Below, piece after piece: positions 37,301 to 64,000 of a stretch of 64,000 nucleotides of DNA. How positions within the stretch are numbered: position 1 is the first letter of the stretch; each line of letters starts with the position of its first letter. A program made the translations under genes and the position numbers. The stretch comes from Syncephalis fuscata. Taxonomy: Eukaryota; Zoopagomycota; Zoopagomycetes; Zoopagales; Piptocephalidaceae. The stretch covers positions 248,001 through 312,000 of the forward strand of contig JAHLTZ010000017.1 in NCBI GenBank assembly GCA_025786725.1, in the 5' to 3' direction. Below the pieces are notes generated by a model. It did not search any database, had not been told where the DNA came from, and worked only from the letters and a program-made list of their open reading frames with translations.

Positions 37301-40300
37301 CTGTGTCTGCTTATTACCATTGCTTGTCTTATTATGTTATTCTTTATTATCTTCTTTGGTAAACTTATTTGTCCGCATCAAAATATACAAACGCTACTTG
37401 AACTACAATCAACCAGCAATGGAACCAGTAGCCAAAACGCATTTATGGCCATTCGAGGCGAAGTATTCGATATACGTAAATTCCCCGCCCATCATACTGT
37501 AACCTATAATGACATTATTAAATCGGGTAAATATGCCGGTCAAGATGCATCGACGCAATTTCCACAGCAAGTATCAACACAATGTGATGGATTTGAAGAA
37601 AATGGCGTGGATAATACAATTGCCTTACAGAATTATACTGTACCTGGATCAAGCGAATATGCTCACGATTTCCGTTGGTGGAAGAACCCAAGTGCCAATA
37701 ATGTATCACCAGATACTTATAGTATATGGATGGAAATGATGCGTCGTTCTTATCGTGTTGCTTTAGTTGGCTGGGACGCAAAATATATTAAATCACAAGC
37801 ACAGGTAGCCGATAAGAAATGGGCCATTATCGATCAGCAAGTATTTGATTTGACCGATTATCTAAAGGGCAATGTATTCCGATTGACACCCGATGGCACA
37901 GTAGCCTCACCCAGTATTGAACGTAAATTTATGGATCCACGACTTGAATCGCTATTTATGCAAAATCCCGGTGAAGATGTTTCTAAACTATTCCGGTCCA
38001 TCTTTCGTCGTAGTGCTGATGCACGTCGTCGAATGGAGACTTGTTTGCGCAATCTATTCTTTGTTGGCGTTGTTGATTACCGTAATAGTTTCCGGTGTCA
38101 ATTTGCCAACTACATGTTGCTAAGTATATCTATTCTGCTAGTAGCAGTTATCTTCTTCAAGTTCTTGGCGGCCCTTCAGCTTACCGGTCGACGTGATCCA
38201 GAAGAACATGATCGATTTGTTGTATGTCAAGTGCCGTGTTATACCGAAGGTGAAGACTCGCTAAAAGAAACAATTGATTCATTAGCCGTTATGCGCTATG
38301 ATGATAAGCGTAAATTACTGTTTGTTATCTGTGATGGTATGATTGTTGGTTCCGGTAACGATCAGCCAACACCACGTATTGTATTGAATATCCTTGGTTC
38401 CGATCCTAATATTGACCCAGAACCATTAAGCTTTATTTCACTCGGTGATGGTATGAAACAGCATAATATGGGCAAGGTATATACCGGTCTATACGAATGT
38501 AGCGGCCATGTTGTCCCCTATATGGTGGTTGTTAAAGTGGGTCGACCCAATGAACGGGCCCGTCCTGGCAATCGCGGCAAGCGTGACTCCAGCTTATTTT
38601 AATGCGATTCTTTAATGCTGTTCATTTCGATGCTGAAATGACGCCATTAGAACTTGAAATGTATCACCAAATCAAGAATGTGATCGGTGTTGATCCCAAC
38701 TTTTACGAATACGTTCTTATGGTGGATGCCGATACAGTAGTGCTGCCTGATGCACTTAATCGAATGGTCAGTGCTATGTTGCACGATCAAAAGATCATGG
38801 GTATTTGTGGTGAAACTGAACTGGCTAATGCTAAAGCAACCTGGATTACTATGATTCAAGTGTACGAATACTACATTTCACATCATATGTCAAAGGCATT
38901 TGAATCGCTATTTGGTTCAGTTACGTGTTTGCCCGGTTGTTTCTGTATGTATCGACTACGTGCACCACATAAGGACCACCCACTACTCATTAACAATGCT
39001 ATTATTGATGAATACTCGGAGAATCGAGTCGATACGTTACATAAGAAGAATTTGCTGTCACTTGGTGAAGATCGTTACCTAACTACATTGCTACTTAAAC
39101 ACTTCCCTACTATGAAAACGTCATTTACTAGTGATGCACAGTGTAGAACAAAGGCACCGGATACGTGGTCGATTTTATTGTCACAGCGTCGTCGATGGAT
39201 TAATTCTACCGTGCATAATTTGGTAGTGCTCTTATCGCTGGATCGACTTTGCGGCTTTTGTTGTTTCTCTATGCGATTTGTCGTTTTTGTCGATTTATTG
39301 GCCACGATTATTCAACCAGCTACTGTTGTTTATCTAGCCTATCTAGCCTATATGGGTATTACTCAAGGCAGTGTTCTAATCTTTGTATCGCTTATGATGT
39401 TGGCGGCCATTTACGGTCTACAAGCCATCATCTTTTTACTTAAGCGTAAATGGGAACATATCGGCTATATGATTATCTCCATTATTGCGCTACCTGTCTT
39501 TTCGTTCTTTATTCCCGTCTATTCATTCTGGCACTTCGACGACTTTTCCTGGGGAATACACGTCTAGTTGTAGGTGGTGATCAAGGCGGTAAAAAGCACG
39601 TTGCCGCTACAGAAGGCGAGAAATTTGACCCACGTACTATTCCACGCAAGAAATGGACCGATTACGAACAAGAGCTATGGGAGAGTGGATCACAAGACTC
39701 GCATGCTACCCACCAGTCACGACAATCACGGGCACCTACTGTACGTTCCTATAGATCACGGGCCAGTATACATAGTCAAAGATCACAAGCAGCTGGCGGT
39801 AATGGCGGAGGGGCTCGATCTGTTTATGCCGCCACTATTCATGGTAATGGCAGTGTCTATAATGGACAGATGTCGGGTCAGTCCTATGCTGGATCAGTGC
39901 ATCAAAGACCATTTAGCGGCTACTCCACTGTATCAGTGCAGCATCATCCACAACATCCATCTATTGCCTATCATGATCCACCGGCTAGTGTTTACGGTGG
40001 TACTGGTACAGAATTCAGCTATGCCGCATCACCTCATCCGGCAATGCCTATGATGTCAACACCGTCACGACCCACTTCAATCTACAATGGTGGTGGTAAT
40101 GAGAGCCATTATGCCGGCTCAGTCATTGCTGGTATGGCTATACCAACGGATGATGAAATTCTCGCTGAAGTACGGCGTATTCTGGCCCATGCCGATCTTA
40201 TGACGGTAACAAAGAAACAAGTACGCGATGCATTATCAAGTGTATTTGGTACAGATATGCAACCGCGTAAAGAGTATATCAATCAGTGTATTGAGCATAT

Positions 40301-43952: not shown

Positions 43953-44540
43953 ATGCACAACATAACTATACTACCTTCTATTAAAATGTTGTTAATAAAT
44001 TGATTTAAATAAATAATGTGATATACTATTTGATCTCTTTGAAACATTTGATATTAATTGTTGTTGTTGGCCATGTGTAGAAAGATTGATCAAATATTAG
44101 TAGGAACCATATATTGCAATTCCATGTCATTACATATTGATTGTTATTGCATCTATGTACAGCATGGATTATTGCAGCTAAATGATTCTTTTACTTTTCA
44201 ATATTCTAGTATTGTATTTTGAGCATATTTGTAATGTAAGATCAAGATTAATATAATTATTATAAGTGTTGTTTATTAAACAGCCACTTTCTCTATAGCC
44301 AATCTGGCTAAATAAATGGTATTTTGAACAAGTAATATTATAATGACAATATATATATTAAAGCAATAATACATATAACTAATTGATTACATTATTGTAT
44401 CGATAATTACACATGAATTAATTAGTATTGGATGTGACATTATACATATTATAGTAATGGATGAGTGTTTAATTATATCTAAAAGTATTAAGAAAAGTAA
44501 AGTAAACTGGATAATAAAAGATATAAAAGTCAAAGTAAAT
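43953..44540 (-). repeat. ~590-bp dispersed repeat, copy 2 (inverted relative to copy 1)
   Basis: Near-identical reverse complement of 31998–32587, about 11.4 kb away. Its right edge overlaps the last ~11 bases of the coding sequence of the first 7TM gene: the stop codon at 44530–44532 lies inside the repeat. The repeat therefore appears to have supplied the 3' end of that gene. Confidence 0.8.
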
Positions 44541-45578
44541 AGCTCCTAAGAATTAAAAAAAATGTTTGTGCGAATCGATCATGATAAGTTGTAATGGTTG
44601 GAGTAATACCAGTATTTACACTGCCATTCATATTGGAGTTATTTACACTTGTGCGTGAAATGGATTTGGTATGTACATTGACACAGTAATTAGCCAGAAT
44701 TGTTGATGTTATTACCCTATAAAATAAGTAAGAAGCGTGTTTTATGACTATTATTACTTACCAATCTATACTGAAAAAGTATTCTGAAAAACCTCCAAAC
44801 GAACTAGTCAATAAAAAACTAATACAAATGAGATTGCATAGTACAACAAGACACATTGTTTGGATGCCTTGCCGTGCCAAACGTCGCCATGCATCCGAGC
44901 CAAACTTGCGATATTGTTTGTAGACGATGTAGCAGAAAGACGCCGAAAAAAAGTATTGACAGGCGTTGTGGTAGCGACCCAGATCCACGATACAATAGGC
45001 GGATAGTCAACAACACAGCCAACAGCGTCGGCAGTGACAGCTGGCGAGTAAATCATTGAATTAATGCCGGAACCAAGCTGCGGTAATATACTAAGTACAC
45101 CGATAGTTAGAATCCACCGATTACGACGTAAGGCCAAGTAAGCTCGCTGCAATACAACGATACTGTTAATAAATACGGAGATAGTTATAATCCAAATACC
45201 AGACCAAACAAATGTTCGGCAGCCAAGTGTATCACTTAGCAATATTACCGCACAGGTTGCAGTAAGAGATACACCTAGAAGGGAAGTGAGCAAGCAACAC
45301 CACCCAGCAAGGCTTTTCGAATCATATCTAACTGCTCTAATAGTTTTGCGTAGGTTGTAGCAGAATATAATGGCTATTGCTAAATTTATTATAAACTGAA
45401 GATAGAATCCAGAAAGACGAGCGCGTATTAGTGCTTTTGTCGGCTTTTGACCATTATGATTTCTTAAAATAACATCGTATATGTTTAATTCGCCAAGCGG
45501 GTGTAGCGGAATACCGTACAACCTCGTAGCATTTTTTTCCCATTCTCTGTTCTCGTAGTATTTGTCTAGATCAGCCAT
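44530..45578 (-). CDS. 7TM GPCR-like receptor, family member A
   Basis: Two exons, complement(join(44530..44716,44762..45578)), about 334 aa. An N-terminal ectodomain carries W(E)KNATRLYGIPLHPLGE. Seven helices follow. A Cys opens TM3 (GCRTFVW) and a Cys sits in the second outer loop (GCVVDYPP), the canonical GPCR disulfide positions. TM3 ends VLQRAYLALRR, like the E/DRY region. ICL3 reads FGSDAWRRLARQGIQTMCL. The intron splits the Trp codon (IDW) before TM7. Ligand and G-protein coupling are unknown. The A7 run at 44946–44952 needs one more base (TM5, VNTFFS). The short tail ends inside the dispersed repeat. Confidence 0.7.
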
Positions 45579-45973
45579 GGACAATACAAATTATAAGGAT
45601 TGATATACAAAGCAAAAAGTAAAATTGCACAGTAAAAACGATGTAATATGAAATAAATATGTACTATGATTGATACAAGGATGATATGTACATAGGCAGT
45701 TTTAAACCTGTACGATTGTATCTAGTGTTGTCGGGCCGCGTGTACACACTGCAGAGTATTAGTGGCGCTTGTTCTTTGTATGCATAAACTGTAGATTTGG
45801 TCTGTGTAAATAGTGGCAGGCTAAGGCTTAACCGGTTTATTAAACAGCTGCCCCAGCAATTTAGATTTGCTTTAATATCTGATAGCAGCTAATTGATTTG
45901 GCAATAGTCTATTGTGTAATAGCACAAGACGCAAAATCATCACTTTTAAATATTAGTCACAAATTGATATGGC
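45579..45973. other. spacer between 7TM genes A and B
   Basis: 395 bases, AT-rich: upstream of member A and 3' flank of member B. No further gene is seen. Confidence 0.4.
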
Positions 45974-47014
45974 TTAGAAAATGGTCGAGTTTGACATCCT
46001 TGTATTTAGAAATTTTACATGAAAAGAAATAACTGTTTCTTTAATGTCGACCTGGGTAGTGGGGACGCTTTTCGAGCTTTTCAAAGCAGCTAGTGAACTT
46101 GCTACCACGCGCGCATTAAAACACATGTGGGCCAGCGCTGTTGTAGTAATTACACTAGATAGAACATTAGGTACTATACACAGCCATTATAATTGCTTAC
46201 CAATCAACGGTAAAAAACATCTCCGAAAATCCGTCAAATAGTTTTTCTACTACAATAACACTGCAAATGATGTTGCACAAGGCGACAAGGCACATTGTCT
46301 GAATGCCGTCTTGTGCCAAGCGCTTCCATGCGCTCGAGCCAAACCTACTATACTGTTTGTAGGAAACATAGCAGAATATGCCAGAAAATAAAGTATTGAT
46401 AGGTATGCTGGCTATAAGCCAATACCAAGGAACATATGTAGGATAATCGATTACACAATCATTATCGTCGTTGAACAAAGTAGGCGAGTTTGATAGTATA
46501 AAAAACCCAAAGCCCAGGTGAGGTGATATAAGCGCTGCCCCTAGAATGGCTATCCAGTATTGACGGCGTAGTGCAAGATAAGCACGTTCGAGCATTATTG
46601 TGCTATTCGACATAGCGGTAAGCGGTATCATTCAGATAAAATAGGTAGTAAGTCCTCGGCAGCTTGAAAACTCGCTTAACATCAATACTGAGCGCCACAC
46701 GCCATCGAATACACCCATAAAAGAGGAAAATAAACAACGCCAGGCAGACAGACTGTTGGGTTGATCGATGACAGCTCTTGTGGCAAAACGCAAACTATGC
46801 ACAAATATAAGAACTGCTAATGTATTAACAAAAACTTGTTTCTGTGTACTAGATACGCGTGTCTTAAGTAATTCCTCGGTCAGCAATTTATTATCAGAAT
46901 TGCTTGCCACTGCGCTGTATATGTTAATTTTACCTGATGGGTCTAATGGAATATTAGAAAAACTAATAGGATTATTTGACCAGTCTAGTCCTGGATTGTT
47001 GGTATTTTATCCAT
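45974..47014 (-). pseudogene. 7TM GPCR-like receptor, family member B, probably broken
   Basis: Same two-exon plan as its neighbours, complement(join(45974..46154,46201..47014)). It keeps IPLDPSGKINIY in the ectodomain, MLERAYLALRR at the end of TM3, DCVIDYP in the outer loop, FGSSAWKRLAQDGIQTMCL and the split TM7 Trp/Cys codon. An in-frame TGA in TM3 (46632–46634) sits at a position that is Trp in A, Cys in C and Thr in D. The start also needs one added base near 46990. Decay is the simplest explanation of the TGA; an assembly error could explain the start. The protein would be about 330 aa if read through. Confidence 0.6.
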
Positions 47015-47456
47015 TGGTATCAAAATACAAAATATAATTAAAAAAGAAGGAAGATTAGGCGCGTATAATAACAATTCAAGTAGAGACGGCTAAGAAGCAA
47101 GGGATGCTACAGTAGTTATAGTTGCGTTATCGCTACTTGACCGAACCTGTATAATTATGTATATTACCCGCATCACGTGTAGGCGAAAAAGCGTACTATT
47201 GGACCAGACCAAGTTTTGTGCATTTTGCGCATGCAATGCGGTCATATTAATCAGTTATAGTTTACTGCTTAATGAATACATTTCTGTGTAAAAGGATAAA
47301 AAGCTGCTTATGTTTTAATTAATTGTTTATATTATAGTAGTTTGTTACACGCATAATTTATATAATACGTGTTGGATGGATTATAAATGTTGTTAGCGTT
47401 TTAATTTCGAAACGATCTAAACATAGTCCCTTGCATAAACCACTCGTGTTGCGTAG
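47015..47456. other. spacer between 7TM genes B and C
   Basis: 442 bases with no recognised gene. It must hold the promoter of member B and the 3' end of member C. Confidence 0.4.
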
Positions 47457-48445
47457 TTATCGTTTCGTTGATGTCGGGTTTTTGATTGTAACGTTCATTA
47501 ATGCTTCGGATGCAGTCAAAGATCCCGATGATGTGTACATGTTAACACAATGATGTGCCAGGATTGTCGTAGTGATTACCCTGGCTGCAAAGTTAGCAGA
47601 ATGCACCATTAAATATTGATGTCTTACCAGTCAAAATTAAAAAAAGCGGGTGATATGTCACCGGCGGCCTTGAGTATTAGACAAGCACCGCAAATGATAT
47701 TGCACAACACGACAAGACACATGGTCTGGATCCCGTGTCGTGCCAGACGTCGCCATGCATCCGAACCGAATTTACGATATTGCTTGTAGACTATATAGCT
47801 GAATATTGCCGAGAAAAATGCATTGATAGGCATAATGGCTAAAAACCATAACCAGGCGACAAATCTCGGATAATGTGCAACGCAGCCACCATGATCTTCA
47901 ACAGTAACATAAGAAAATGCTATGGCCAACGGGCCAATACTTAATTCCAACAAAATGCATAATATACCGGCAATAGCTGTCCGACGCTTACGTTGCAAAG
48001 CCAAATGGGCTTGCTGAAGCACTGTCGTGCTATTACAGCAAATCGCCACTGTACCGGCACAAAGATTATACCAAACAAACTGACGGCAGTTTGCGTAATC
48101 CAGTACTACTAGCGTACTAGCCAAGCCTATAGAAGCGCCTAGTACAGAGGAAATAATACAGCACCATACGCCTATATTTTTTAACCGACTTTTGGCAGTT
48201 TGAATCGAAACATTAAGGTTGAGTATAAATATCATTGATAGCACAATGTTTACTACAATTTGAACTTGTAGGCCAGCTAGACGAACTCTTGTTGCTTCCA
48301 TGGTCAGTGTTTGATTATCTGTATTTTGTATTATTGCAGTATATGGACTCATTTCGCCCGATGGATGCAATGGAATATTAAATAACTTGACGGCACTCTC
48401 TCTCCATGTTTCTGATAAAAAACTGTTAGCTTGTAAGTCGTCCAT
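47457..48445 (-). CDS. 7TM GPCR-like receptor, family member C (intact)
   Basis: Two exons, complement(join(47457..47580,47628..48445)), give 313 aa with no frame problem, so this is the reference copy of the cluster. Ectodomain with WRESAVKLFNIPLHPSGE; TM1 about residues 66–88; TM3 preceded by NCRQFVWY; TM3 end VLQQAHLALQRKR (Gln for the Arg of the RAYLA motif); outer-loop Cys in GGCVAHYP; ICL3 FGSDAWRRLARHGIQTMC; then FDW|VITTTIL at TM7 with the Trp codon split by a phase-2 intron. Short cytoplasmic tail with TSSGSLTAS. No known GPCR class is recognisable beyond the general motifs. Confidence 0.75.
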
Positions 48446-49965
48446 GTACAATAGACATAAACACAAACATGCACTTAAAAATTAGATATAAACGGGAATC
48501 CTAATAAATGATGATAGAAGACGGTACTGGTAATTAATTCACAAGAAAAGGAAGCTCGCTAAGGCCTAGACAGCTTTCACTTGCCTGTCCAGCTGTGTAT
48601 TACCCATTCAAATACTTATGCCGAACACGCAAGTCACGCCTTATAGTGATTGGTTCAAAAAACAGACAAAGCAGCAAATTTTGGATAGTATTTAAATCAA
48701 TCTATAGATATAAATAAAGCTATCTGGATAGCAACAATGCACCTTATGGGTATGTATACTTTAAGAAAGTACCGTATTGTTTAAGTCTGTTTCGAGAAAA
48801 AACAGTCCAAATGTAATTGTTGAGTGTAACTTTTATTATGTGCGACTTTATATTCATTATGTATAATCTAACTAATACGATTTGTTGCTATTTTTATTTA
48901 ATATCAACTGTATTGAACAATAATTATAACGGTACAGGTACAATCATATTGATAGCTATAATGTATTTGCAGTACAAAAGCAAATATTCTTGATAAAGTG
49001 TGCTATTATTACTATTATTGCACCTCAGTCAATAATATCGATTCAGATAATACGTCACATTATACATAAATAATAGCGTTTTTAATGAATGACATAATTA
49101 AATCAGGTATGATAATATATTTACAAAAATAATACAGATTAAATAGCACTACCATATTAACATTAAATTTATTTTAATATTCTTTGGCGTATATTTGAAT
49201 TGCGAACAAAAATAAACAAAGCTGATACATTGATAGTAATTTTAATTTGAAATGCTACCATACAAACACGCGGTTTCTTTGTTAGCACATGATGTTCAGT
49301 TCTTTGTTGTAGCAGCACGTGGATGTGCCTCGCCCAATTGATGTAGTAAAATACCAAGAAACGAATGGCATTCGCTCTTAGTTTGTATGCCTGCCACACG
49401 CACTTGTAATATACATTGTTATAATAGCTATATCAAGTAATAAAACGATCTATACAATACCAAAGGTGTATCTATAATATAGCATGTATGCACGTTGCTG
49501 TTGAAATCATTAACAAAATGAAATATTGTACTATTTTGAGCTATGCTGAATTCAATCACTAGACAAAGTGGTTTGTTCTAGACAATGGGTCTATTAAAAC
49601 TGTTTTTTTACAAATCAACTACGTCTTAAGGCTATCTTTTTATTTGACATAGTATTAATTCAGCGATAGCATTTCAAGATAAACCGTCGATACAGCAAAG
49701 CTAATGCTCCATACAATAAACAGACGACAAACTTTATCAAAATATTTATTTAATTATCTTTAAAGCATTTTTTATTGTGTTACTAAAATAAAACTCATCA
49801 AGACTTAATTACAGCTACAATGTGAGATTAAAAATTGTATTTATTTTAATATAATTATAGCGCATTTTTTATTTAAATAACTAAACTGTAGTATATTTCA
49901 ACGGCCTCTTTGAATGTATGATTGAAATAGCGTTTCAGTAGCGTTGGGTCCGTGGTAGGACGTGG
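48446..49965. other. intergenic, about 1.5 kb
   Basis: AT-rich spacer between members C and D. Only short minus-strand frames that do not match the family. No degenerate extra receptor copy is apparent by eye. Confidence 0.4.
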
Positions 49966-50954
49966 CTATGTTTTAAAGTCATTAAAGCTATTACAAGTAG
50001 TTTTGAAATTTTTAGATGTTGCCATAGAACTTGCTGTTTTGCCAATTCTAATGCTGTGTATAGATAGAATGGTCGAAGTAATCAACCTAAACACAAGGTA
50101 AGATTTAGCTTATTATCTTTCTTTTGTTTTAACTTACCAATCAATGTTAAAAAAGAATTCGGCTTGATCTCCACCTATTTTTCCAGTAATAGTCCGCCGC
50201 ATAGTATATTACATATGACGATAAGACACATTGACTGTATACCATCGCGAGCCAAGCGCCTCCATGCATCCAAGCCAAACTTACAATATTGAGTATAGGT
50301 TACATAACAAAATATAGTTGAAAATAAAATATTAATAGGCATAATAACCATAAACCATAAAGGGGCCGTGAAATTATCGTAAATACACACGCATCCGCCT
50401 GCATCATCAGTTCCCGTATATGAAGTTGCAATTGTATAAAACGCAAAACTACTCTCTGGCAATATAAGCAAAATACCAACCATAGCCACCCAGCCTTTAC
50501 CACCCAGGGCTAGATAGGCTCGTTGAAGTACGGCAGTAGTATTGCACATTGTTCCAATAATGCCAGTTGTAAGTATATACCAGGCAAAAATTCGGCAATT
50601 ACCGTATGAACTTAACATCATTAACATGTAGACTATACCGACACTAGCTCCAAGGATTGATGAAATAAAATTGCACCAAGCTGCAATGTTGCTTTTTCGC
50701 TTTACAATAAGCTTAGCTGAGATATACGAAATGTATAAAAAGGCAAATAATAATAACATGTTGAAAAATAGTTGAACTTGGAACATAAACATCCGTTGTC
50801 TTACAACTTTCTCCACCGGCTCTTGACCATCCGTTTTTTTTACAACAGCATCATATGGATTCAGTTCACCTAAAGGGTGCAGCGGAACACCAAGAAGCTT
50901 GGTGGCATTTTCTCTCCATTTTTCATCAAAGCGGAAATTAATTTCGCGACTCAT
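49966..50954 (-). CDS. 7TM GPCR-like receptor, family member D
   Basis: Two exons, complement(join(49966..50086,50138..50954)), about 313 aa. Ectodomain WRENATKLLGVPLHPLGE; Cys before TM3 in NCRIFAWY; VLQRAYLALGGK after TM3; outer-loop GGCVCIYD; ICL3 FGLDAWRRLARDGIQSMCL; split Trp codon (IDW) before TM7. Exon 1 is one base short of the 818 bases seen in the intact member C. The T5 run at 50178–50182 (end of TM6, EKIGGD region) needs one more base. The tail is Ser/Lys/Thr-rich. Confidence 0.7.
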
Positions 50955-51358
50955 AGACTTTGATATATATTTAATAAAGGTTAGAAAGAATAATAAAACA
51001 AATTACGAGTGGCGAGGAAATTGAAAGAAATGACTGCATCTAAAGCACGCGGATGTGTCATAATGCTAAGAGGTCAACTGCAGCTTTTTGCAATATCAAA
51101 AAACTGGTTTTACTTGACTGCAAAAGCCGGTCGTGTCGCTTTACTTATTGTCCCATCATTTTATCGCAAATTGACAGAGTATCTCGGTGGTATGCACTAG
51201 ATATTAATACTAACAGTTAAACATGGACATGTACTAAATAAGAAAATTTTAATGACATTGCTATTATATTATTTCATTTTTTATTTTTATTTTATGACCA
51301 TCTCTATTTAGATTATTAGACAATCATGGACAGATACGTGGTGGCGTGTATAATTAAA
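50955..51358. other. spacer between member D and NUP85
   Basis: 404 bases. The short open frames here have no family match, and I see no promoter element I would name. Confidence 0.4.
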
Positions 51359-54241
51359 TTAAAGATATCCAGCTGTACTGATGGCTCTCGCCAAATTACG
51401 CACTAGCGCAACTCGGACCACCGACAGGCGCGAGGTAAGTAGATTTACTTTCTCGCTTGAATAATCCACACCAGTATCGTTGTCGGTATTATTTATGGGT
51501 CGATTCGTATTACGTGTTCGTTTGCCATGTTGATTTATAGCCAGAGCATCGCTTGATAGGTCAGTGCCAGTATCTGTGCGTTTTCTCGCCGACTGGTTTA
51601 CGTTAACAAGTTCTTCCAAACAGCGCATCATTTCGTATGTCTCCTCGGACGTGAATAATACTTGTTCATCTAGTTTAACATGAATAAGTCGTCTAGAACA
51701 TGATATGCAGGGATTATGTACCATCTAGCAATAATAGGGCATCCATAAGGAGAATAGGCCAGAAACTACGCGGCGCTGCGCCGGACGAGAAAAACGGGGC
51801 CAATGTACGAGCTGCACTCACGTAATCGCCACTCTGTTATTATTGGTATGATTATTCACATTAGCACTAACATATCACTGGCACCAACTACTTACCGCAT
51901 ACTCTTCGTGAAAACTGCGGTAATGTGATAAAAATGCCAATAAATCACATTGCTTCTGTGCCTCTTGATCTAAACTGTCAATAATCTCTATATTGACTAG
52001 TTCTCCTATAGTAATAGTAGTAATGTAAATATATAAATACAGCTATGCTGGTTTGACCAATTAGTACATACGATGTTCAAGATAATTATTTAGCAGTTGC
52101 TCCGTAACGGCTGATATACGCGATGGAAGACTAGCTCGCGAGTAATAAGCAATTGCCTGGGCTGGTCGTTGACGGGCTACATTCATACGAGCCCATGTCT
52201 AAATAAGCAGCCAATTAGTTTATTAGCCGTGCCATTATTATTATTATTATTATTATTATTTCTATTGATTACATACACGATAAATTGTCGACTTTTGTTC
52301 TACAAGTTGGTATTCATCACATATGGATAATAGTTGCTGTACTTGTCGTTCGTTTTTCAATGGCACACGTACAACTAACTGTAGGGTTATTACATCATCA
52401 GCAATACTGTAAATTGATTACACTCTATAACCTACTTGCTCCATACGTTCTCTTCCTTGTATTGGACACCAGTAAAGATATCCCATAGCCAATGGCCAGT
52501 AGGTAGCATTGTTCAGTTGTTCTGCGTATTCAACTAAGAAATATTCGTTTAAATTACAGGCATATCTATTGCACAGTCAGCTATTGCTTGTACGCGTATT
52601 TCCATGAACTTTAATTGTTCTAGCTACGTTACCCTTGGCTTGGCTGATCAAATAGATTAAGATAGTTGAACATGTCGGCCAAATGCGCCACTAACCATGT
52701 ATCCACATGACTACAATCACGAATGGCCTATAGTCATATCGTTGTAGCTCTTTTCAAATATAAAGCACTGATGCCACTTACTTGAGTGGCATTCTGTTGA
52801 ATAAGAGCCAATAATACTTGATCTAATGCTTTATTTTCCAATGAGCCATGATGGTCCACACAATCAGTGGCAAATTCACTATTTAATTCCATTAATATTT
52901 ACATTTATCCGACAATCAGTTCACTAATAATACATACCCGACAAGAGATCGACCGGCCAATGGACGACAAAGTACCAAAACACCAATCAATGATTCTAGC
53001 CAACTCGAACCCGATTGGATAATTTGCTTTTCATCACCAGTCAACATTAGCAACAAAGACTCAAGTTCATGTTTATATGGTAGTGTTGAGCTTTTAATAA
53101 GTGTTAGCTGATACCTATATAGTGGAAATATACCAATTTAGCCTATATATTCACGTATATTATCATTTGTTAATGCTTACCGGCCATCCTCCTGCCAGCC
53201 ACGCCACTGGGTCAGGAAATCGCCTTCAGTACGTAGACCAGCTCGTCGAGGCATCTTACGCAAATGAGCCGAGAGTTGTTGCAGCTGCGGCTGTTGTTGA
53301 TGTCCACCGTTAATGGTAGCCAATAAACGAGCTGCCTCATCCATCATACCACGTAGTAGACATTGCCGTAGTAGTGTCCAAAAGTGTTCCCCTGGCTGTG
53401 GTACCATGGTGGCAATCATTGCCTCAATGCTGGCCGGGTCTGGTCCTGGATAGTGCTCATTCAACCAACGGCATAGCGGTTCAGCTAATGGCTCGGTTGT
53501 TGTATGTTCAAGTAGCATCAATTCGCTAAGTTCTAGCACCATCGTGGCTACACGTACAAATGTGTGCTCAATGACATCGGCATCAGTTGCTTGATTTGTC
53601 GTCATTGATTGCAAACGACTGGCATGTCGCTTCAATGCACTACGATATTGACGTGATATATATCGAATCTCATCTAATCTTTTACGTGACAATGAGAATA
53701 TTGCCGAGCGTGGATCGTTGATATTGTTGCTACTAACATAGCCGGTCGTCGTCGTGACCGCGCCTGGTGTCGTTGAAGCAGGCAATTCTTCTTTTTGCAA
53801 GCTTTGCTGCATTTCTTTAAATATCACGTATGCATCTTGCACAAACTATAAAACCAGCCAATAAAGCAGCGTTTAACAAACAGACCTGTATTTATGTATG
53901 ATATGACTTACGGGAAAACGTGCGGCTGGCAGTCCCGGCAATTGCACAATATAGAGCGAGCGATCAGGCTCAAATAGATCTTTGGTCTATGAAATATTAA
54001 TCAATTAGCCGTATATAACTGGCTGTGCCTATCTAATTACCAGATCTTCGTCGGGTTTACGCGGTTTAGTACCTCCAACACAGATAGTAAACGCGCTATC
54101 AGTGCTGGAAGGCACTACCAACAAAGTACGTCCTCTACGTGCCCATTCTTTTGTTTTGCCCGCCTCAATAAGTGACGGATTCAACGTAAACACATCAGAG
54201 GTGGAATGTGCTCCACTCTGGCTTATTGTTTCCACTTCCAT
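51359..54241 (-). CDS. NUP85: nucleoporin Nup85 (Nup107–160/Nup84 complex)
   Basis: Twelve exons give 733 aa: complement(join(51359..51669,51722..51833,51896..52005,52072..52198,52277..52378,52436..52565,52633..52727,52782..52878,52938..53114,53181..53845,53912..53986,54041..54241)). Typical Nup85 landmarks: an early KEWARRGRTLLVVPSS, GEHFWTLLRQCLLRGMMDEAARLL, WLVAHLADMFNYL, YFLVEYAEQLN, LAFLSHYRSFHEEYA, APRSFWPILLMDALLLL and a C-terminal FTSEETYEMMRCLEEL…VRVALVRNLARAI. It is an alpha-helical scaffold of the nuclear-pore Y complex. All phases close. A TTA microsatellite sits in the intron at 52234–52260. It is divergent from the SBP2-like gene over 146 bases. Confidence 0.92.
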
Positions 54242-54387
54242 GACGGTGCTGGTAAAAAGAAGAACAATAATAACAATAACAAAGAAAATAAAGCTCTGAA
54301 TACAAAACGTGTTTTATTTATTTTAAACGTCATTCCAATATTAATTTACACTGTTTTTCGCGGTTACTTATTTACAGCTGTTTAGTA

Positions 54388-56977
54388 ATGGTACAGCCAC
54401 GAAAAAAGAATGAACAACGTCAAAAAGATGCAGTCGTTAGCAAGAAACCAAAGCCTACGCCGCTTTCGTTGGCAGACCATGTAGCTGTACAGTTAAATAA
54501 GGTGCGATAGACAATATTTATTATGGCTATTGACTAATAAAGTAAATTCAATTGGTATAGACTATTGATTTAGCACCAAAGCGTCGTAATATACGCCATG
54601 AATCGTCTACAAAGCATAAAAAGACCATGACAGCAGAGAAGACAACGATAATACGAAAGAAGATGCTAGTTAAACCGCGTAATCCAATGGATGGAACAGC
54701 ACCGCGAGTTACGTATCGTGGATTTCAACGAAAAACACCAAAATTAAATAAGCAAATTAGTTCAATTAAACGACGGATATTGGCTGGTAGAGCAGAAATA
54801 CGTTCATTAATTGCCCAAAGACTTGATAAAAAAGCAATTAAAAGTGGTTTAGTTATTGGTAAATCATTCAATAAATTAACAACGATAAAAGCCATATCAC
54901 CTATTCAAAATGTATGGTTGGAACAAGAATTGCCTTCAAGTATAAAAACGCCAATTGTTGATAATAATGCTAGCAGCTCAGATATTTCATCAACACCTTT
55001 GGTAGAGCGGCGTAAAACTCGTCGAGGCGCAAAAAAGAACAAAAAGAAAGTAAAAGATGACTTCGTATCTACTGCTAGCCATAATCAAGCGACAAAAGTC
55101 GATTGTCTAGCAGCTATGCCTATAGAAATACGGTATACATTAGCTCATACACTAAGCAATAATCGGGGCCTAACTAAAAGGTGGGCTACAAACAAATTGT
55201 ACGACAAAATAAGCAGCGAATTGATATAGCTGTTAGTTATTGCGATCAATGGGTCTCTACTGAATTAGATACCAGCGTGACAATACTAATGGCCGAATTG
55301 ATTCGTTATCAAACGAGAAAACTACAACAGGTTCCAATTAAGGTAAGCTTATATTATAGTTTATGTTGCTGTATTTAATACAGATTAAGTGTAGGCGAAA
55401 ATACGAAAGCGATATGTTATTGGATTTAAAGAGTCTTTACGCACGTTGCTATTGGATAAAGCCCGCTGCATTATTATGGCAAAAAACATTGAATATATCA
55501 ATCCAAGCGGTATGAAGATTACATTTAATAATATATGTTTATAGGATATTAATCGATAAAGATAGAAGAGCAACTGGATCCACTTGTTGTGCAAATACAA
55601 CAACAATGCCATCAACGATCGATTCCATTAGTATATTCAATGACACGACGTCAATTGGGATCGGCTATTGGTGGTGCTCGAGGCCATCGAACGGGTGGCG
55701 TAGGCTGTATAGCACTATTAATGATTGATGGTGCCGAATCTTTGTATGATCGTGTATTGACACTGGCTGATCAAGGAAGGCATTATTGGCAAGACTACTT
55801 TTGTTCCCTACGTCCAGCCACCGATGCTTTAACACCATGGAATAGCTACGGTGAAACGCCTGTGTGGCTAGCTTCATGGCATGGGTATTCTAACGATGTC
55901 CTTTGTAAATGTATAGATAATGGATGGTCAGTGGATACACGACGACAGTCTTATCAAAGTGATGCTCCTAGAGACTGGACACCATTAATGGCTGCATCCT
56001 ATCGAGGACATGCTCATATATTGTCAATACTATTGAGAAAAGGAGCACAAGCGAATGTAAAAGATCAAATGGGCAAGTCAGCCTTGTTGTTGGCTATTGA
56101 ACAAGGGCACGTATCAGTAGTACATGAACTATTGAAATTGGCAGCAACATTGATTGATGTAAATATAAAAGATAACGATGGAAATACGGCATTACAAATA
56201 GCTATTCAAGGCAAGCATATACAGATTGTTCGTGCTTTATTGGAACAAGATCAGTTAAACATAAGTGATACATGTGATGATCGGGTTAATGAAAAGATAG
56301 CTATGTCTAATCCATTACTACTGACCATTCAATTAAGTTTACATGATGTTCTATTTGAATTATATCAATACTACGAGCAACGATGGATAGTTGAAATGAC
56401 TGAAATAGTCACTGCTACATTTACACCTAGGAAAATGATGCTATTTCTAAATAGCCGATTACCACTGGATGATCAAGGTCGAAATCCTTTTATACTGGCC
56501 TGTGCCATTGGCAATTTAACGGTGTGTCAAACACTGTTGATCTGTATGAGTAGGCCTATCTCTATACCAATGCCCGGTGCTCAGAAACGACGATGGAAAA
56601 TAGATCGAGCAGAGCGGCAACGCCAACTAATCAATCAACCAGACGAGCAAGGAAGAACTGCGCTATGGTGGGCATCGGCTAATGGACACATATCCCTTGC
56701 AAGTTGGTTATGCGGAAACTCGCTTGATCATTTACAAATAGATCGAGAATTAAAAGATCAAGAAGGAAAGACGGCATCAGATGTTGCAGCATTATATTAC
56801 AAGGATTGGCTGAACAATACAGCAAATGAAAAATTAAAAGATGTGGCTATGAAGAATCAAAAGAAACAAACGGATTCACGTATACAACAACTCGTTTATG
56901 ATATTTGTCGTACAATTGCTAAACCATCTTCTAAAACTTTGCTTCCAAGTAATAAAAACGACAATAATGATGATTAA
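54388..56977 (+). CDS. SBP2-like L7Ae RNA-binding region fused to ankyrin repeats
   Basis: Four exons, join(54388..54501,54561..55342,55395..55509,55566..56977), about 807 aa. The Lys/Arg-rich N-terminus is followed by a region that reads like SECIS-binding protein 2: ELIRYQTRKLQQVPIKAK, then IRKRYVIGFKESLRTLLLDK, ARCIIMAKNIEYINPS and IPLVYSMTRRQLGSAIGG (L7Ae/kink-turn fold, about 290–400). The same frame then runs into at least four ankyrin repeats (about 455–700: DWTPLMAASYRGHAHILSIL, KSALLLAIEQGHVSVVHELL, NTALQIAIQGKHIQIVRALL, RTALWWASANGHISLASWL). In animals SBP2 recruits EFsec to SECIS elements for selenocysteine insertion. The ankyrin fusion is unusual. One added base in the A4 run at 55176–55179 is needed within exon 2. 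Confidence 0.72.
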
Positions 56978-57083
56978 TTAGCAGCATAATCATAATAATA
57001 ATAATAATAATGTAAAAACACATTTATATTTTAATAAATTAGTGATTATTATCACCATTGATCATTATTGTTTATTTGTATTA

Positions 57084-57803
57084 TTAAAACCCAAAACGTT
57101 CTTTTAACGATGACATCTCCTCATGGATTCGATGGCGTAATCGGCCATGTTTACCGTGCATTTTGTCGCTCCAATAACTGCCGGTTTCTTCGACAGTTGT
57201 AGTTTCCGTGTTCTTACCATCCTTTAGCGTTGTTGTTGTCTTTGTCACGGTAACAGTCTCAGTTCCATTTAATCGATCAAGCTCTCCCATAAGCGATTGA
57301 AGTCGTTCGGATGTTTCGCGGCATCGATTGCGCAACTCTTCACCGTTGCCTTCTTTTCGTAACTGCCGTACACGGCGCTTCATTTTACGTGTCTTTGCCT
57401 TTTCCTCGTCATCGCTCGAGTCTGACGACGATGAATCCGATGATGATGCGTGCTCGTCAACACCTTTCTCCTTCTTTGCCTCGACCTGATCAAAGGCCAG
57501 ATGTAGCACTTTCAAATCTTTTTCCAATAATTCATCCAGCTCTTTTTTAACGTTGTTTAGCCGTTCGTTTAGCTCTTCTCGCTCGTGTTCTACAGAGCGC
57601 TTAATAAGACGGCGGCGCCAGTGGCGGCGATAGTGTTTAAATGCACGTACAAGGCCAATACCGGCTGCCGTGGCTAGTGTGGCTGATACAACTGCTAGCA
57701 CCACATGTTTGCCCTTGATAGTATGACCACGAACGGTTCCTACTGGTCGGTCGAGTGCACGGGAGGCTGAGTCGGCCGCGTTGGTAAGTGCCTTGGGCGC
57801 CAT
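57084..57803 (-). CDS. single-pass membrane protein with coiled coil, unknown family
   Basis: One exon, 239 aa, start ATG at 57803. One transmembrane helix (about residues 33–55, VVLAVVSATLATAAGIGLV) is preceded by a short N-terminus and followed by a basic HYRRHWRRRLIKR stop-transfer patch. Then a long charged helix (EHEREELNERLNNVKKELDELLEK), an acidic Ser/Asp run (SSSDSSSSDSSDDEE), another charged helix and a Thr-rich segment ending in a basic C-terminus. A membrane tether or organelle-shaping role would fit, but I recognise no family. An upstream open extension without an ATG is probably 5' UTR. Confidence 0.65.
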   Translation of the reverse strand: MAPKALTNAADSASRALDRPVGTVRGHTIKGKHVVLAVVSATLATAAGIGLVRAFKHYRRHWRRRLIKRSVEHEREELNERLNNVKKELDELLEKDLKVLHLAFDQVEAKKEKGVDEHASSSDSSSSDSSDDEEKAKTRKMKRRVRQLRKEGNGEELRNRCRETSERLQSLMGELDRLNGTETVTVTKTTTTLKDGKNTETTTVEETGSYWSDKMHGKHGRLRHRIHEEMSSLKERFGF

Positions 57804-59221
57804 AGTAACTGTCGGAGAATGAAAGGGAGATAGAGGTGCAGTGGCTGTAAAAATGATAGTGGTATGTACTGGTAGTGAATAAGGAATTGACGGAGAAGCA
57901 CAGCCCGAGTACACAACGTCATCTCGCCTCTTTCATCGGCATATGGAGTAGTGAATCTTTATTGGGATAATGACGACGATCTAAACCAATCATGGTTAAG
58001 CATTGCCCTATTCTGCATAGCCCCATCTAAGAATGGCAGTATTATAGCAAGTTGTAAATTAAATAAAAGTAATAATCTGCTATTCCAGCTATTGATAAAT
58101 AATAATAATGATTTTAATAGTAATCAGTCAATGCACAATAGAATGATACATAATTAAATAAATATGCAAGAAAAGAAGATGAATAAATAAAAAATATATG
58201 CGTACTGGATAATAAATCAACAATGATGAGTATTTGATGACTGATGTCACTCCCACCCACCATCATGTTCAATAGATTGGATGTTATTAAATCTAATTAT
58301 TTGACCACTAAAATATATTAAGTAATCAATGTATTATTTAATATAGTGTAATAGCCTTAATGCAAATAAAATAATAAAATAAAGTTATAGTATTAATGTT
58401 ATAATAAAATAGCAAGAGTTTAGCTGAATCAAATATAATTAATTGTAATATATTGTTTTCTATTGTCATTACCGTTAGTGTGGCAATCAACATCAAAGTG
58501 CTTGACGAAAGACGGCATGATTATAGTGCTGCTCATTATGGTTACTTTACTTGTCGTTATCATTTATTGTAAAAAGTCCATTTGGCATCAGTTGGACAAA
58601 TGCAATCTAACAAATTAAAGAACATTACATGATTGTACTTAACTCGTATGAATTACGAAAATAATGCGGACAACCGAGGCTTAAATGGACATATGTCAAA
58701 ACAAACACACATGTTACTATCATCAGCATCATACGACATTCCATAAATATCGCTGAAACATAATCGTATAGACACTGAACTATAAATGCTGGCAATAAAT
58801 TATTTATTATTACACAAAAGAGTTGATTTAGTTTATCTAATAACTAAAAGAGCATAAAATGCCACGGTTTGCTCGTGCACTTGCACCATTAAGAAACTAG
58901 CCATAATTTCAGATAACAAACAGCGCCCTACTAAGAATAGCCGTTTGGCTAAAGCTGGTTTCACGAACTAAACGCTCAATAAAACCGGCTTGAATACTCC
59001 GGCCATGCGGAATCATCCATGTGTAAAAGCGGCCTTGCCAAACAAAGATTACCGCCAAATGTGCTCCAATTCGCTCGTATCGTTCAATGCATAATAGAAC
59101 TACATCTTACTACCCAAGACTTTCTACTATGCTATTTTGTTTCTGTAACACCATCGGTCACTATTCAACAATCTTTTAGCTGATATATGTGCACAGCCAT
59201 TGACTACATACTATAAAAACG
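57804..59221. other. intergenic, about 1.4 kb, with one coding-like fragment
   Basis: Divergent upstream regions of the coiled-coil gene and receptor E. Mostly AT-rich; the stretch 58911–59106 is an exception and is listed separately. Confidence 0.4.
58911..59106 (-). pseudogene. coding-like fragment of unknown protein
   Basis: About 64 minus-strand codons without a stop, balanced in composition and clearly less AT-rich than the surroundings. They contain IERYERIGAHLAVIFVWQ, a Met/Pro/His/Gly-containing centre and GFIERLVRETSF, and end in TGA. There is no start codon or convincing splice acceptor. It could be a lone exon or a remnant of a gene. I recognise no family. Confidence 0.3.
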
Positions 59222-60202
59222 ATGGTTCACAATGACACAACCGGAGATATAAATATCTCCGAGTATATATGGCAGATGCATGACGATAAAACAAATCTTC
59301 AGCGACGATATGTAAATTTTAACTATTTGCTAGTGTTGATAGTTACCATGGCTGTTATCTTTATACGCAATACCATTGGCGTCGGGATAATAGCCATAAA
59401 GTATCCATATAAACTTGCACCATGGTGCTGTTTCTTTGCAAATATCTCAGGAGCAATAATAGCTGTAGGCATTAGTACACCGGCTTTCTTTGCCCATGGT
59501 CCATCTTGCAACACACTTGTATGGGCAGTTGTAGCTGTACTTCCCTTTTCAAGCACTTTGATCAACATTATGCTATTTGAACGAGCCTATCTTGCTTTCC
59601 GGCGCTCTTTATGGTTTCTCTTGCTGGGTATATTATTTATTGTAATACCAGGCCCTACATATTTCATTGCCGCACGTTGGTCCTCCACTCCCAGACTTAA
59701 TGAGCGATATGGATGCTATTTGGACTATCCCCAATACCTGGCATATATTCGCCTTGTTGTAGATCTACCGTGCAACATTGTATGCTCTGTAGTATTCTCC
59801 ATAGTAATCTATCGGCAGTATAAAAGATACCGTGATGACTGCTGGAAACACCTGGCCCGTAATGGGATAATTACTATGGTTTAGTTATCGTTTCGAACAT
59901 GCTATGCTTTTTCTTAAATCTAAGCGGTGTTTTTGAAGAAGCCAGCAGTTATTTGTACATGGGAGACTGGTAAGTTCACATAACCGCACTTTTTAACATT
60001 TATTGACACATCTGAACCAAGGATAATAACAATTACTTTGCTTACAGAAAGTACAAAAAAATTGTATTTTGTATCGCAGTCCGCAACAGTAAAAAAAACA
60101 TCTGTCAATCCTAACTTGCAGCTAAACGTTTATTCAACAGAATTTGGACTGGAAACCGATTTTAGTATCTATCCAACAGAAATGCCAACAACACGAGACT
60201 AA
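59222..60202 (+). CDS. 7TM GPCR-like receptor, family member E
   Basis: Two exons, join(59222..59969,60022..60202), about 309 aa. Shorter ectodomain (TTGDINISEYIWQMHDD) than members A–D. Seven helices, with Cys before TM3 (PSCNTLVW), MLFERAYLAFRRSLW after TM3, outer-loop YGCYLDYPQYLAYIR, ICL3 YRDDCWKHLARNGIITM and the split Trp codon (GDW) before TM7. The tail contains KLYFVSQSAT. The T-run at 59880–59882 (start of TM6) needs one more base. It is a close tandem relative of member F. The ATG follows a TATAAAA string by a few bases, a position shared with F. Confidence 0.72.
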
Positions 60203-60943
60203 ATAAAACAAGTGTATTTATTGAACTACTAAAGTTGAATCATTACCCAATGGGTTATTATAAGTTTACAAATATGCTGGTAATTAATGTAGAGCATGCC
60301 ACTCAAAAGACATTAAAGCCAGAAAGTATAGACATGTGATTCAATGGCCTTGTACCTCTATGCTTACTAGCAAGTATGTGCTTTAGATTTTTATAAAAGT
60401 GATTTATTCTACTAAATCATTTCAATGTTTTGCTGTAATAAGACAAAACTAGAAAACCATTAAATGATCCATTATTGAATTTTAAAATTAATACTAAGTG
60501 TATTAGAGTAAAGCTCAGACCTATCAGCATAATATCAACTATTTACAATAAAGCCTATTAGAATTCCAAGTCTTGCATAACTGTAATATCACTACTGACT
60601 ATTGTATTTGAATTTACTACAACACTTGCTTAGATTTGAGTAAGCATTAATTTTATAGTCATCTAAATTTTAGAATTGCTCTATTAAACCGGTTTTATTG
60701 AAAAACTGGTTTTTGGCATGCAAGCATATAAAGCAGCTCATACTCAAAAGCAGTTCAACTAGCAGCCAAGTCCTTTGTACATGTGCTCCTTTTTCATCTA
60801 ATATTTAACATACGTATTCTATTCTGTTTTGTAAATCGACCTTTACTATCATTGTGTTTTATATTAACAAACTAATTAAATAAGCGCCAATAACTATTCA
60901 ATTAATATCTATATACAGTCATTGATTGCGCTGCATAAAAACA
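60203..60943. other. spacer between members E and F
   Basis: 741 bases, AT-rich. The last ~40 bases resemble the sequence before member E (CATTGA…CATAAAAAC before the ATG), suggesting duplicated promoters. No gene is seen. Confidence 0.4.
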
Positions 60944-61927
60944 ATGGCGTTCAACGATACAGCTGGCGATATAAACATATTTGAGTATATATGGCAAGCA
61001 CATGACAATGAAGCAATTCTTCAGCAACGTTATAAAATTTAAATTTTCAGTTCTTATTGTTTATTATAGGAGCGGTAGTTTTTTCAACTAATGCCATCAA
61101 AGTTGGAATAATAACAGCAAAATATCCTTATAAACTTGCACCGTGGTGCTGTCTACTTGCAAACACAACAGGAGCGCTATCTAATATATGCTTTGGAATA
61201 TTCACTTTTTTTACCTACGGTCCAACGTGCCATGCAGTTGCATGGGCCACTGTGACATCATTGACAATATCTACCGTACTGACTAATATTATGCTTCTTG
61301 AACGGGCTTATCTTGCATATCGCCGTTCCAAGCTATTCATCTTACTGGGAATATTTCTCATCTTAGTACCGGCACCTATATATATGATTGCTATATGGTG
61401 GTGTGCGGATATCGGGCTTAGCAATCGTTATGGTTGCTATATGAAATTTGCTTTCTATCTTCCGTACTTCCGTCTTCTTCTCGACCTTCCATGCAATCTT
61501 GTATGCTCTGCGGTATTCTCTACGGTTATTTATAAGTATTATAAAAAGTATCGTGATGATTGTTGGAAACGCCTAGCTCGTAATGGAATTATCACCATGA
61601 TCCTGGTTATTTTATCCAATATAATATGCTTTTTTTTGAATTTAAGTAATGTTTTTGAAGAGGGAAGTGGATTTCTTTACGCGGCTGATTGGTAAGTAAA
61701 TATGAGGCATTAATGAGCGCTTTTTGTTAACATTACTTATTCTAAGGTTTATAACAATCATGCTGCTTACAGAAAGCACCAAAAACTTGTACTTTGTATC
61801 GCAGACAGCAACGGCCAAGAATTTTCCTACTAAATCTTGCTTGAAAAAGAAAATTTATTCTGTAGATTCGGTGCAAGAAACTGAAATTAGCATGTGGCCA
61901 ACAGAGCTTCAGAGCATGAGACGTTAA
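60944..61927 (+). CDS. 7TM GPCR-like receptor, family member F
   Basis: Two exons, join(60944..61691,61747..61927), with the same exon lengths as member E (748 and 181 bases), about 309 aa. Ectodomain TAGDINIFEYIWQAHDN; Cys before TM3 (PTCHAVAW); MLLERAYLAYRRSKL; outer-loop YGCYMKF; ICL3 YRDDCWKRLARNGIITM; split Trp codon (ADW) before TM7; tail with KNLYFVSQTAT. One added base is needed in the T3 run at 61038–61040, just before TM1. The tail conservation with E (TESTKxLYFVSQ) suggests a functional cytoplasmic motif in this subgroup. Confidence 0.72.
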
Positions 61928-62531
61928 ATAAAACTATGTTATTACAGTTTTTCCAAAAAAGCCATAACAAAATGACTAAGCGATAGATCAATCTTGTAGC
62001 AATTTATATCGTCTGTTACTTTTGCTATACAAATAGTTATTTAACCGATAGCTTTGTCTAATAGTTAGAATAATAGAATGTAATACACCAATTGACTATT
62101 TGTGTAATAATTGGTACTGTTTAATAAAACAGATGCATTAAATATAATGTATATATGAGCAAAGTAAAATGGACTGCTACTTTTGTTTTTTGTAAATAAT
62201 TTAATTAGTGGCTGTTTTACGTATAAATAAACAAACTTCTTTTTTACACGTTTTTCTACAAATATAACAATCAGAATTATTCACACTACAGTGCTAAAAA
62301 TTAAATTATTAACATTAACAAGTATAATTATAGCAATTCGTACTATTTGGATTGCTTTACAATTAATGAGGATTTATGTTGAAAATATAGTTGTTTAAAT
62401 ATCAGAGAATTGAAAACTATTGTAATGTATTTAAAACATGGTCTTGAGATTAATCTCAAGTAGCATCATATATTCTTAAATGTAATGCTATTTGAATATC
62501 ATATGATAGACAATTTTGATTTCTTTGTTTT
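61928..62531. other. convergent intergenic region, members F and G
   Basis: 604 bases of AT-rich sequence between two converging genes, with several AATAAA-like signals. No gene is seen. Confidence 0.4.
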
Positions 62532-63472
62532 CTACCTTTCTATTGACGCCTTAGATAATTGTACAGAGGCTAGTTTGTTCGGACTTTTTTGACTATTATA
62601 ATGGTAAGCACTATTAGATGTATTCTTTAATTGAAAAGTACTTTTCACCAGCAGCGCAGTTGTGGCAGCCCTATATTTGCAAATTAGCTTTGATTTTCAA
62701 CTTTCAATTTTTAATACTTGCCAATATATTGTACTAATTACAAGGCTGAATTGAGAAAACAAATAAATGATGTTAAAAGCAATGCAAAATACATTTAAGA
62801 GTATCGCTAAAATGGACGTTCTTATGCTGTTGCTGAATATTTTTGTCCAACAACCTTTTCCATATCGGCAATACCGACGACGTATAAGAACGCCAAATGC
62901 TATAATAAATACCAAATTGATGGGGATATCGGCAATAGATCGAATATAAACTAGCATTGGCGGATAAATAATGCTGCAACCGAAAGACGGGAATATAGTA
63001 AAGGACACTGTTTGTCCAAATACTAGCAGAAAAGTTGGAGCCGGTAGCATCAACAGTATTATGCCTATGACCAGTATTAAACGATCACATTTGTATGCTA
63101 AATAGACGCGCTCTAATAAAAACGCATTTACACACAGTGTTGCTATAGTAAAGCCAAAGGTTAGACAATACGCCACTGTTTTGCATGAAGGGCCGCTTGG
63201 AAAGTAAAATGGAACAAGTGTTCCGCCAGTTATGGCAATCCCGGATAATGTTGTTGTTAAACAGCACCAGTGGGCAAGCTTATCAGGGCGGCTGATAACT
63301 GTTTTTGCAGAGTAATAGAAGCAATGTAGAAAAATAGCAAATAAAAATACGCTACCAATAGTTTGGATGTGAATGCCAGTCTATGGTGGCGATACATGCT
63401 CAAACTATCAGTCTGTATATGTAAATACTCGTAGATATTCATTTCACCGGATAATTTATTCTCGTGCTTCAT
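62532..63472 (-). CDS. 7TM GPCR-like receptor, family member G
   Basis: Two exons, complement(join(62532..62670,62722..63472)), about 296 aa. Ectodomain LSGEMNIYEYLHI; TM2 begins DKLAHWCC as in E/F (YKLAPWCC); Cys before TM3 (PSCKTVAY); FLLERVYLAYK after TM3; outer-loop FGCSIIYPPMLVYIR; split Trp codon (YW) before TM7. The intron donor is G|GCAAGT rather than GT, so this would be a GC–AG intron at the family's conserved site. The A/T run at 63362–63364 (before TM1) needs one more base. ICL3 (YGKGCWTKIFSNSIRTS) is more divergent than in the others. Confidence 0.68.
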
Positions 63473-64000
63473 AATTGCTAAAGATAACGCTAGAGATATT
63501 GTCGTAATAATACACAAATTAGATAGCTTTTAATGGAATTAAAGAATTGCAATGGAGAGAGGAAATAAAGCAACACGACAGATAAGGAGCAAATGCCAGA
63601 GCAGGAGGGCGGTATATAAACAGCTGAGTGACTTGAACAGATAGTTGATGCTTACAATGTTGCACATGGTGTGCTTAGGTTGTTAACAGCTCCAATATTG
63701 TTAAATGTAACGCATCTTTCAAAGAACTAAATGAGGCATGGCAATTAATCTATTGCTATTGGCCAATGCGTGTGGATACCGTCACACTCTCGGTGTCTCC
63801 GCTCATTTGACTCCGAGCATGCACCTTCTCCGGCTTGTCTTTACACGATGCTGCATGTCAATGGCTCAAGGCATTACAATTCATATGCGTGTAGAACCGG
63901 AATTGCTTGTTATTGTGTACGTGTCAAGAGCGATTTTATTGTCATCTGATCTTACACTAATTTAGCGAAGACATCGAATGCAACGCAACTTGCATGTACA
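63473..64000. other. window edge, no confident gene
   Basis: Upstream of member G. From about 63738 all three plus-strand frames are partly open and the base composition is less AT-rich, so a gene may begin here and continue beyond the window. No frame is favoured. Confidence 0.3.

Follow-up and report, generated by a model that had tools for sequence, protein, structure and literature searches.

A large, tandemly clustered family of predicted seven-helix, GPCR-like receptors in the mycoparasite genus Syncephalis

The stretch of DNA analysed here, 64,000 nucleotides long and hereafter called the window, corresponds to C79:248001-312000 of the assembly of Syncephalis fuscata (order Zoopagales, family Piptocephalidaceae), which comprises 28.95 Mb in 299 contigs; Syncephalis is described, in the title of a work cited in PMC6784888, as a genus of ubiquitous mycoparasites. 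Toward its end the window carries seven paralogous genes, designated A to G, whose products are probably cell-surface receptors having the fold of G-protein-coupled receptors (GPCRs). The arrangement that a first-pass annotation had read from the letters, with A–D on the minus strand, E and F on the plus strand and G again on the minus strand, was recovered.

Gene A (44530..45578, minus) consists of exon 1 (45578-44762), with a frame break near 44950, and exon 2 (44716-44530); its NCBI model, P0007 (BDF19DRAFT_443090), leaves out the region surrounding the break. Gene B (45974..47014, minus; exon 1 47014-46201, exon 2 46154-45974, the latter read by hand) has an early break and an in-frame TGA at 46634-46632. 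Gene C (47457..48445, minus; exon 1 48445-47628, exon 2 47580-47457) is unbroken and encodes a protein of 313 amino acids identical to P0001 (BDF19DRAFT_88755 of S. fuscata). Frame breaks are found near 50175 in gene D (49966..50954, minus; exon 1 50954-50138, exon 2 50086-49966), near 59880 in gene E (59222..60202, plus; exon 1 59222-59969, exon 2 60022-60202), near 61036 in gene F (60944..61927, plus; exon 1 60944-61691, exon 2 61747-61927) and between ~63380 and 63257 in gene G (62532..63472, minus; exon 1 63472-62722, exon 2 62670-62532). A single 3′ intron, of the GC-AG type with a GC donor in gene G, is common to all seven and, as had been noticed earlier, splits a codon just where transmembrane helix 7 (TM7) begins; this codon, belonging to a DW motif, is that of Trp (TG/G) in six genes and of Cys (TG/T) in gene B, as read by hand.

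Six of the seven genes are thus interrupted by one or more frame breaks or stops, gene C alone reading from start to stop. Are these genes lost? A possible but rather unlikely explanation, compatible with the reading of the family developed below, is that most of the window cluster is in decay and that pseudogenes or null alleles account for several of the six genes other than C. Besides the number of broken genes, this explanation is favored by the two faults of gene B, the best pseudogene candidate in the window, and by a core test that found three of the seven window genes open (C, F and G) versus 24 of the 25 genes uncut by the stretch end in six other clusters, these having been chosen for being dense. 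On the other hand, C266:24001-31000 (L062) holds a reversed second copy of the E-F-G cluster (window 59245-64000), either allelic or duplicated, in which the core of gene E is open and gene G has an open frame of 277 codons that includes a 227-residue stretch shared with the window. Alignment of the two copies (4,766 columns, 97.4% identity) shows 98 mismatches and 26 gap openings, the gaps occurring also between the genes, and gene F of the C266 copy has one-base gaps, i.e., breaks, of its own, as expected of an imperfect consensus. Given the open cores of genes E and G on C266, several breaks of the window look like damage of assembly or allelic origin, and it is to such differences that the frame breaks are partly ascribed. 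Sampled members of the family are mostly open and the window cluster is unusually broken; in the genome search with gene F as query, 10 of 149 merged places had a stop within the match, frameshifts escaping this measure.

The seven genes, real paralogs as the first-pass annotation had it, do not make up the whole family, which turned out to be far larger. Searches of the S. fuscata genome gave at least 127 matches with gene C, at least 150 with gene F and at least 150 with gene G, merging into at least 185 distinct places; a query from a third clade gave at least 129, of which just 19 chosen places were merged with the former and six proved new, so that the total is at least 191 places, spread over 61 contigs of an assembly of ~29 Mb. 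Some of these are second copies (e.g., C266/C79, C92/C235, C299/C256, C224/C285 and C66/C245), so that distinct genes number fewer than 191. Expansion by tandem duplication, as earlier proposed, accords with the finding that 114 of the at least 191 places are clustered (gaps <10 kb), the largest clusters being the window's seven and, tied with it, C289:389677-401935.

For phylogeny and conservation 50 members (set A3) were drawn from 55 unique full-core open reading frames (ORFs), leaving out L046:1-708, L029:3-683, L047:1399-2082, L007:3-722 and the window copy of gene G, which is represented by the C266 copy in L062; near-copies such as L035 and L036 are present in the set. The resulting tree is split into two clades with a Shimodaira–Hasegawa-like approximate likelihood ratio (SH-aLRT) support of 100, type 1 (22 members, the kind of E–G) and type 2 (28 members, the kind of A–D), which coincide with the two ectodomain types distinguished from the window. 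Five more loci, all open-cored, resemble a third group outside the tree; four are alike, with 31–51% identity to one query, and L073 is more divergent.

Protein database searches yielded 17 matches with gene C, 26 with a profile of 33 sequences and seven with a profile of the third group. Among the matches listed, the named relatives belong to S. fuscata, S. plumigaleata and S. pseudoplumigaleata only, and three further proteins are from metagenomes; this agrees with the lineage specificity that had been proposed, with the proviso that distant kin may be missed because the search depended on 5-residue words in common and scored no more than 8,000 candidates. The names of two UniRef matches to gene C begin with “G-protein couple” and “7TM GPCR serpent”, so that the receptor identity was already hinted at by automatic annotation. 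A 595-residue S. fuscata record named as a WD40-repeat protein (P0026) also aligns in part with the receptor profile and is probably a fused gene model.

In the alignment of the 50 members, numbered according to gene C, four residues are invariant: Cys120 before TM3, Cys188 in the second extracellular loop (ECL2), Pro206 in TM5 and Trp273; the two cysteines are those already singled out in the window. The TM3 end had been given as [EQ]R(A/V)YLA, a motif that fits 21 of the 50 members; what is general is a basic residue at position 145 (49 of 50), the sequence being ERAY in type 1 (Arg in 22 of 22) and mostly [QH]KAY in type 2 (Lys in 24 of 28). Likewise, the motif DxWxxLARxGIxTM of the third intracellular loop (ICL3) fits 7 of the 50 members in its strict form, and the Trp within it (Trp231) is retained in 49. 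The class A switch motifs are generally defined as D2.50, CWxP and NPxxY; the acidic residue in TM2 is found in one member, the TM6 proline in none, and NPxxY in none of the 17 TM7 segments inspected.

The summed content of Lys and Arg is 2.86, 2.82 and 4.86 in loops 1, 3 and 5, and 0.82, 1.16 and 0.70 in loops 2, 4 and 6, a charge bias from which a topology with the N-terminus outside and the C-terminus inside is predicted. The short ectodomain and the outer loops are variable (entropy of the latter 2.1–2.5) and ICL2 and ICL3 are conserved, being with ~1.5 the least variable loops; ICL1 has 2.36. A hydropathy scan displayed only six peaks because the ORFs used stop at the intron, which is spanned by the seventh helix, visible in the structure models.

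Over 41 close pairs (all those with a proportion of synonymous differences, pS, <0.55 and of nonsynonymous differences, pN, >0.01, members recurring across pairs) the pooled ratio of nonsynonymous to synonymous divergence (dN/dS) is 0.46 in the outer half, 0.33 in the inner half and 0.34 in the N-terminus, and pN is higher in the outer than in the inner half in 40 of the 41. Positive selection was considered and is unsupported, dN/dS being below 1 in the pooled pairs and in each region of gene F with synonymous changes; TM6 of the F copies has one nonsynonymous and no synonymous change. The two F copies are identical in ICL1, ICL2 (two codons skipped), TM5 and ICL3 and differ in TM2-ECL1, TM4 and ECL3, also at synonymous sites (dS 0.54 in ECL1 and 0.80 in ECL3). 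Since these differences are patchy and clustered, exchange of segments between family copies is suggested. A simple conversion of F by E was rejected: at 68 differing sites readable in E, agreement with E is found for the C266 copy at 25, for the window copy at 31 and for neither at 12. Within the ECL1 tract, a single 27-base piece is 92.6% identical to E; from this and the site counts, E would at most be a donor of short pieces.

Comparison of predicted structures with GPCR folds had been proposed as a check of the first-pass annotation. The AlphaFold models of gene C (mean predicted local distance difference test score, pLDDT, 88.2; predicted template modelling score, pTM, 0.84) and of a type-1 protein, P0018 (pLDDT 81.6, pTM 0.75), both bear out the seven helices and have a hairpin in ECL2. 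In the former, Cys120 lies at a helix start and Cys188 in the hairpin strand 187-191, so placed that they would form a putative bond like the TM3–ECL2 disulfide. Foldseek returned 41 PDB matches of the gene C model at E≤1e-3, all of them class A GPCRs (best 6.7e-5), and GPCRs make up 48 of the best 50 VIA-align matches of each model. The latter belong to classes A, C and F for both models and also to class D for gene C, with none preferred; absence of a family from the VIA-align list does not exclude it. The models of both window types thus have the GPCR fold, and fold and topology of the family can be predicted with good confidence.

To which receptors could the family be related? Pfam found nothing of the GPCR kind: 7tm_1 was matched by none of 50 and none of four further members at E≤0.01, the 50 members gave at this threshold four single-member matches to other families, pieces of the window gave at E≤10 stray matches, none over cut-off, and a sequence profile search of PDB gave two meaningless matches and nothing else. 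With class A, and with fungal class 15 as set out in PMC12842992, the family shares seven helices with the N-terminus outside, a Cys before TM3 and another in ECL2, the ECL2 hairpin, the basic residue at the TM3 end and the TM5 proline. In contrast to class A it lacks a 7tm_1 match, the TM6 proline, NPxxY and, with one exception, the TM2 Asp. Therefore, the “class A-like” label previously attached to the window genes, valid as to the Cys pair, is too specific, also because other GPCR classes tie structurally. Ste2 (class D) comes first in the VIA-align list of the gene C model, but with 9% identity, and is outside the best 50 for P0018; it is not known to have a class-A-like disulfide, and its Pfam family is matched by none of the 50 members. 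Of STE3 no place was found in the genome, where the control was silent as well, and no Pfam match in the 50 members.

The Pth11-like receptors (class 14) offer the parallel of a large seven-transmembrane (7TM) expansion in fungi living on other organisms (PMC13308352, PMC12842992), but according to the latter survey they are reported from Pezizomycotina only, and neither a CFEM nor a fungal rhodopsin domain was matched by the 50 members at E≤0.01. The basidiomycete DUF6534 proteins, which PMC12842992 proposes as a class additional to the 17 that it sets out, likewise form a fungal 7TM family that is unclassified and for which a GPCR-like nature is predicted; identity with them was dropped, a piece of gene A scoring 12 bits versus a cut-off of 28.2, and no genome place was found at E≤1e-3, though the control was silent here too. 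The cAMP-receptor-like proteins (class V, PF05462), to which belongs Gpr1, involved in prey recognition by mycoparasitic Trichoderma (PMC13308352), are 7TM receptors of the same genome but encoded by separate genes: four places, two equal-scoring, on C104 (C104:494-1243) and at C212:164403-180278. One place of the family, C212:166428-167231, lies within the latter stretch, yet is not among the four, and PF05462 was matched by none of the 50 members. The sole 7tm_1 place of the genome overlaps a class V gene.

Components of G-protein signalling are encoded in the genome: two Gα loci, both on C234, exceed the cut-off, and weak, partial matches occur at two further sites elsewhere. Domains of regulators of G-protein signalling (RGS) were found at 25 places (e.g., C103:4229-4573 and C229:137122-137472), some in equal-scoring pairs, which is many for a fungus having two Gα loci over cut-off.

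Taken together, we consider it quite probable that genes A–G belong to a family of cell-surface receptors, confined to Syncephalis, that have seven helices in a GPCR fold and would signal through G proteins upon ligand binding in their outer half; the best reading is that of tandemly expanding, genus-specific GPCR-like chemoreceptors. Small molecules or peptides from outside would bind to the variable outer half, binding would shift the helices, the conserved inner face would activate one of the few Gα proteins and RGS proteins would terminate the signal, whereas tandem duplication, perhaps together with segment exchange between copies, could vary the outer half and keep the inner face. The members thus probably sense chemicals from outside, perhaps those of hosts, and the finding and recognition of fungal hosts would be their likeliest use.

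Several observations weigh against this: no Pfam GPCR family matched any of the 54 members scanned, there is no class motif besides the Cys pair, the TM5 proline and the basic residue of TM3, the Foldseek template modelling scores to GPCRs are merely ~0.35–0.55 with root-mean-square deviations of at least 6 Å, microbial rhodopsins, which account for the other two of the best 50, tie with GPCRs in VIA-align, just two Gα loci over cut-off face so many receptors, and ECL2 is without any difference between the two F copies. The lack of Pfam matches, the missing class A switches and the paucity of Gα would suit also seven-helix sensors that are GPCR-like in fold only and signal without G proteins, e.g., as channels or through other partners. 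We regard this as rather improbable, since the basic inner loops are conserved, Gα and the 25 RGS places are present and the N-terminus is predicted to be outside; insect odorant receptors have the opposite topology.

That the proteins are transporters or enzymes having seven helices by chance appears very improbable: the stray sub-threshold Pfam matches are to transport or unknown membrane families only, but none reaches the cut-off, the best structural matches listed are GPCRs or rhodopsins and conservation concerns the inner loops and not a membrane-buried catalytic set. Indeed, of the findings that the first-pass annotation had named as contrary to its reading, neither appeared, no known transporter or enzyme family of Pfam being matched by family members and the predicted topology having seven helices and the N-terminus outside. 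Retinal-binding pumps or sensors of the microbial rhodopsin type can be practically dismissed, the 50 members lacking a Pfam opsin match and TM7 (segment present in 17 of the 24 sequences of set A2) a conserved Lys, this residue occurring within its first 20 positions in two of the 17, at differing places.

That the first-pass annotation could not place the family in any described fungal GPCR class is in line with the Pfam results. It is a tentative proposal, for which the chances are somewhat below even, that the chemoreceptor family constitutes a new, genus-specific class beyond the 17 published ones and one of the largest fungal receptor repertoires, a combinatorial “nose” by which an obligate mycoparasite would perceive its hosts, diversified via tandem duplication and exchange of outer-loop segments. 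For comparison, a review (PMC13308352), which also describes the Pth11-like expansion, counts 105 GPCRs in Fusarium graminearum, 43 in Neurospora crassa and three in yeast. No description of such a family in Syncephalis was found in the open-licence literature, and neither “Syncephalis” nor “Zoopag” occurs in the main text of PMC12842992, among whose many unclassified 7TM clusters the family could be present unnamed. The starting point of this survey is GPCRs already known, together with Pfam domains; since the present family matches none of the latter, receptor counts for early-diverging fungi may fall far short. With so many members, conserved in the inner face and variable in the outer, the family allows a direct test of how mycoparasites find and recognize their hosts.

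As to the remaining content of the window, the two receptor clusters are separated by a piece of the nucleoporin Nup85 (53180-53845, minus) and an ankyrin-repeat protein (55556-56977, plus), in which no relation to the receptors is seen. Farther upstream, 14802-16178 (plus) encodes part of a carbohydrate phosphorylase, and an open frame at 34757-38602 (plus) contains a myosin head, a cytochrome-b5-like domain and the beginning of a chitin synthase 2 domain, i.e., a myosin-motor chitin synthase that continues downstream in other frames.

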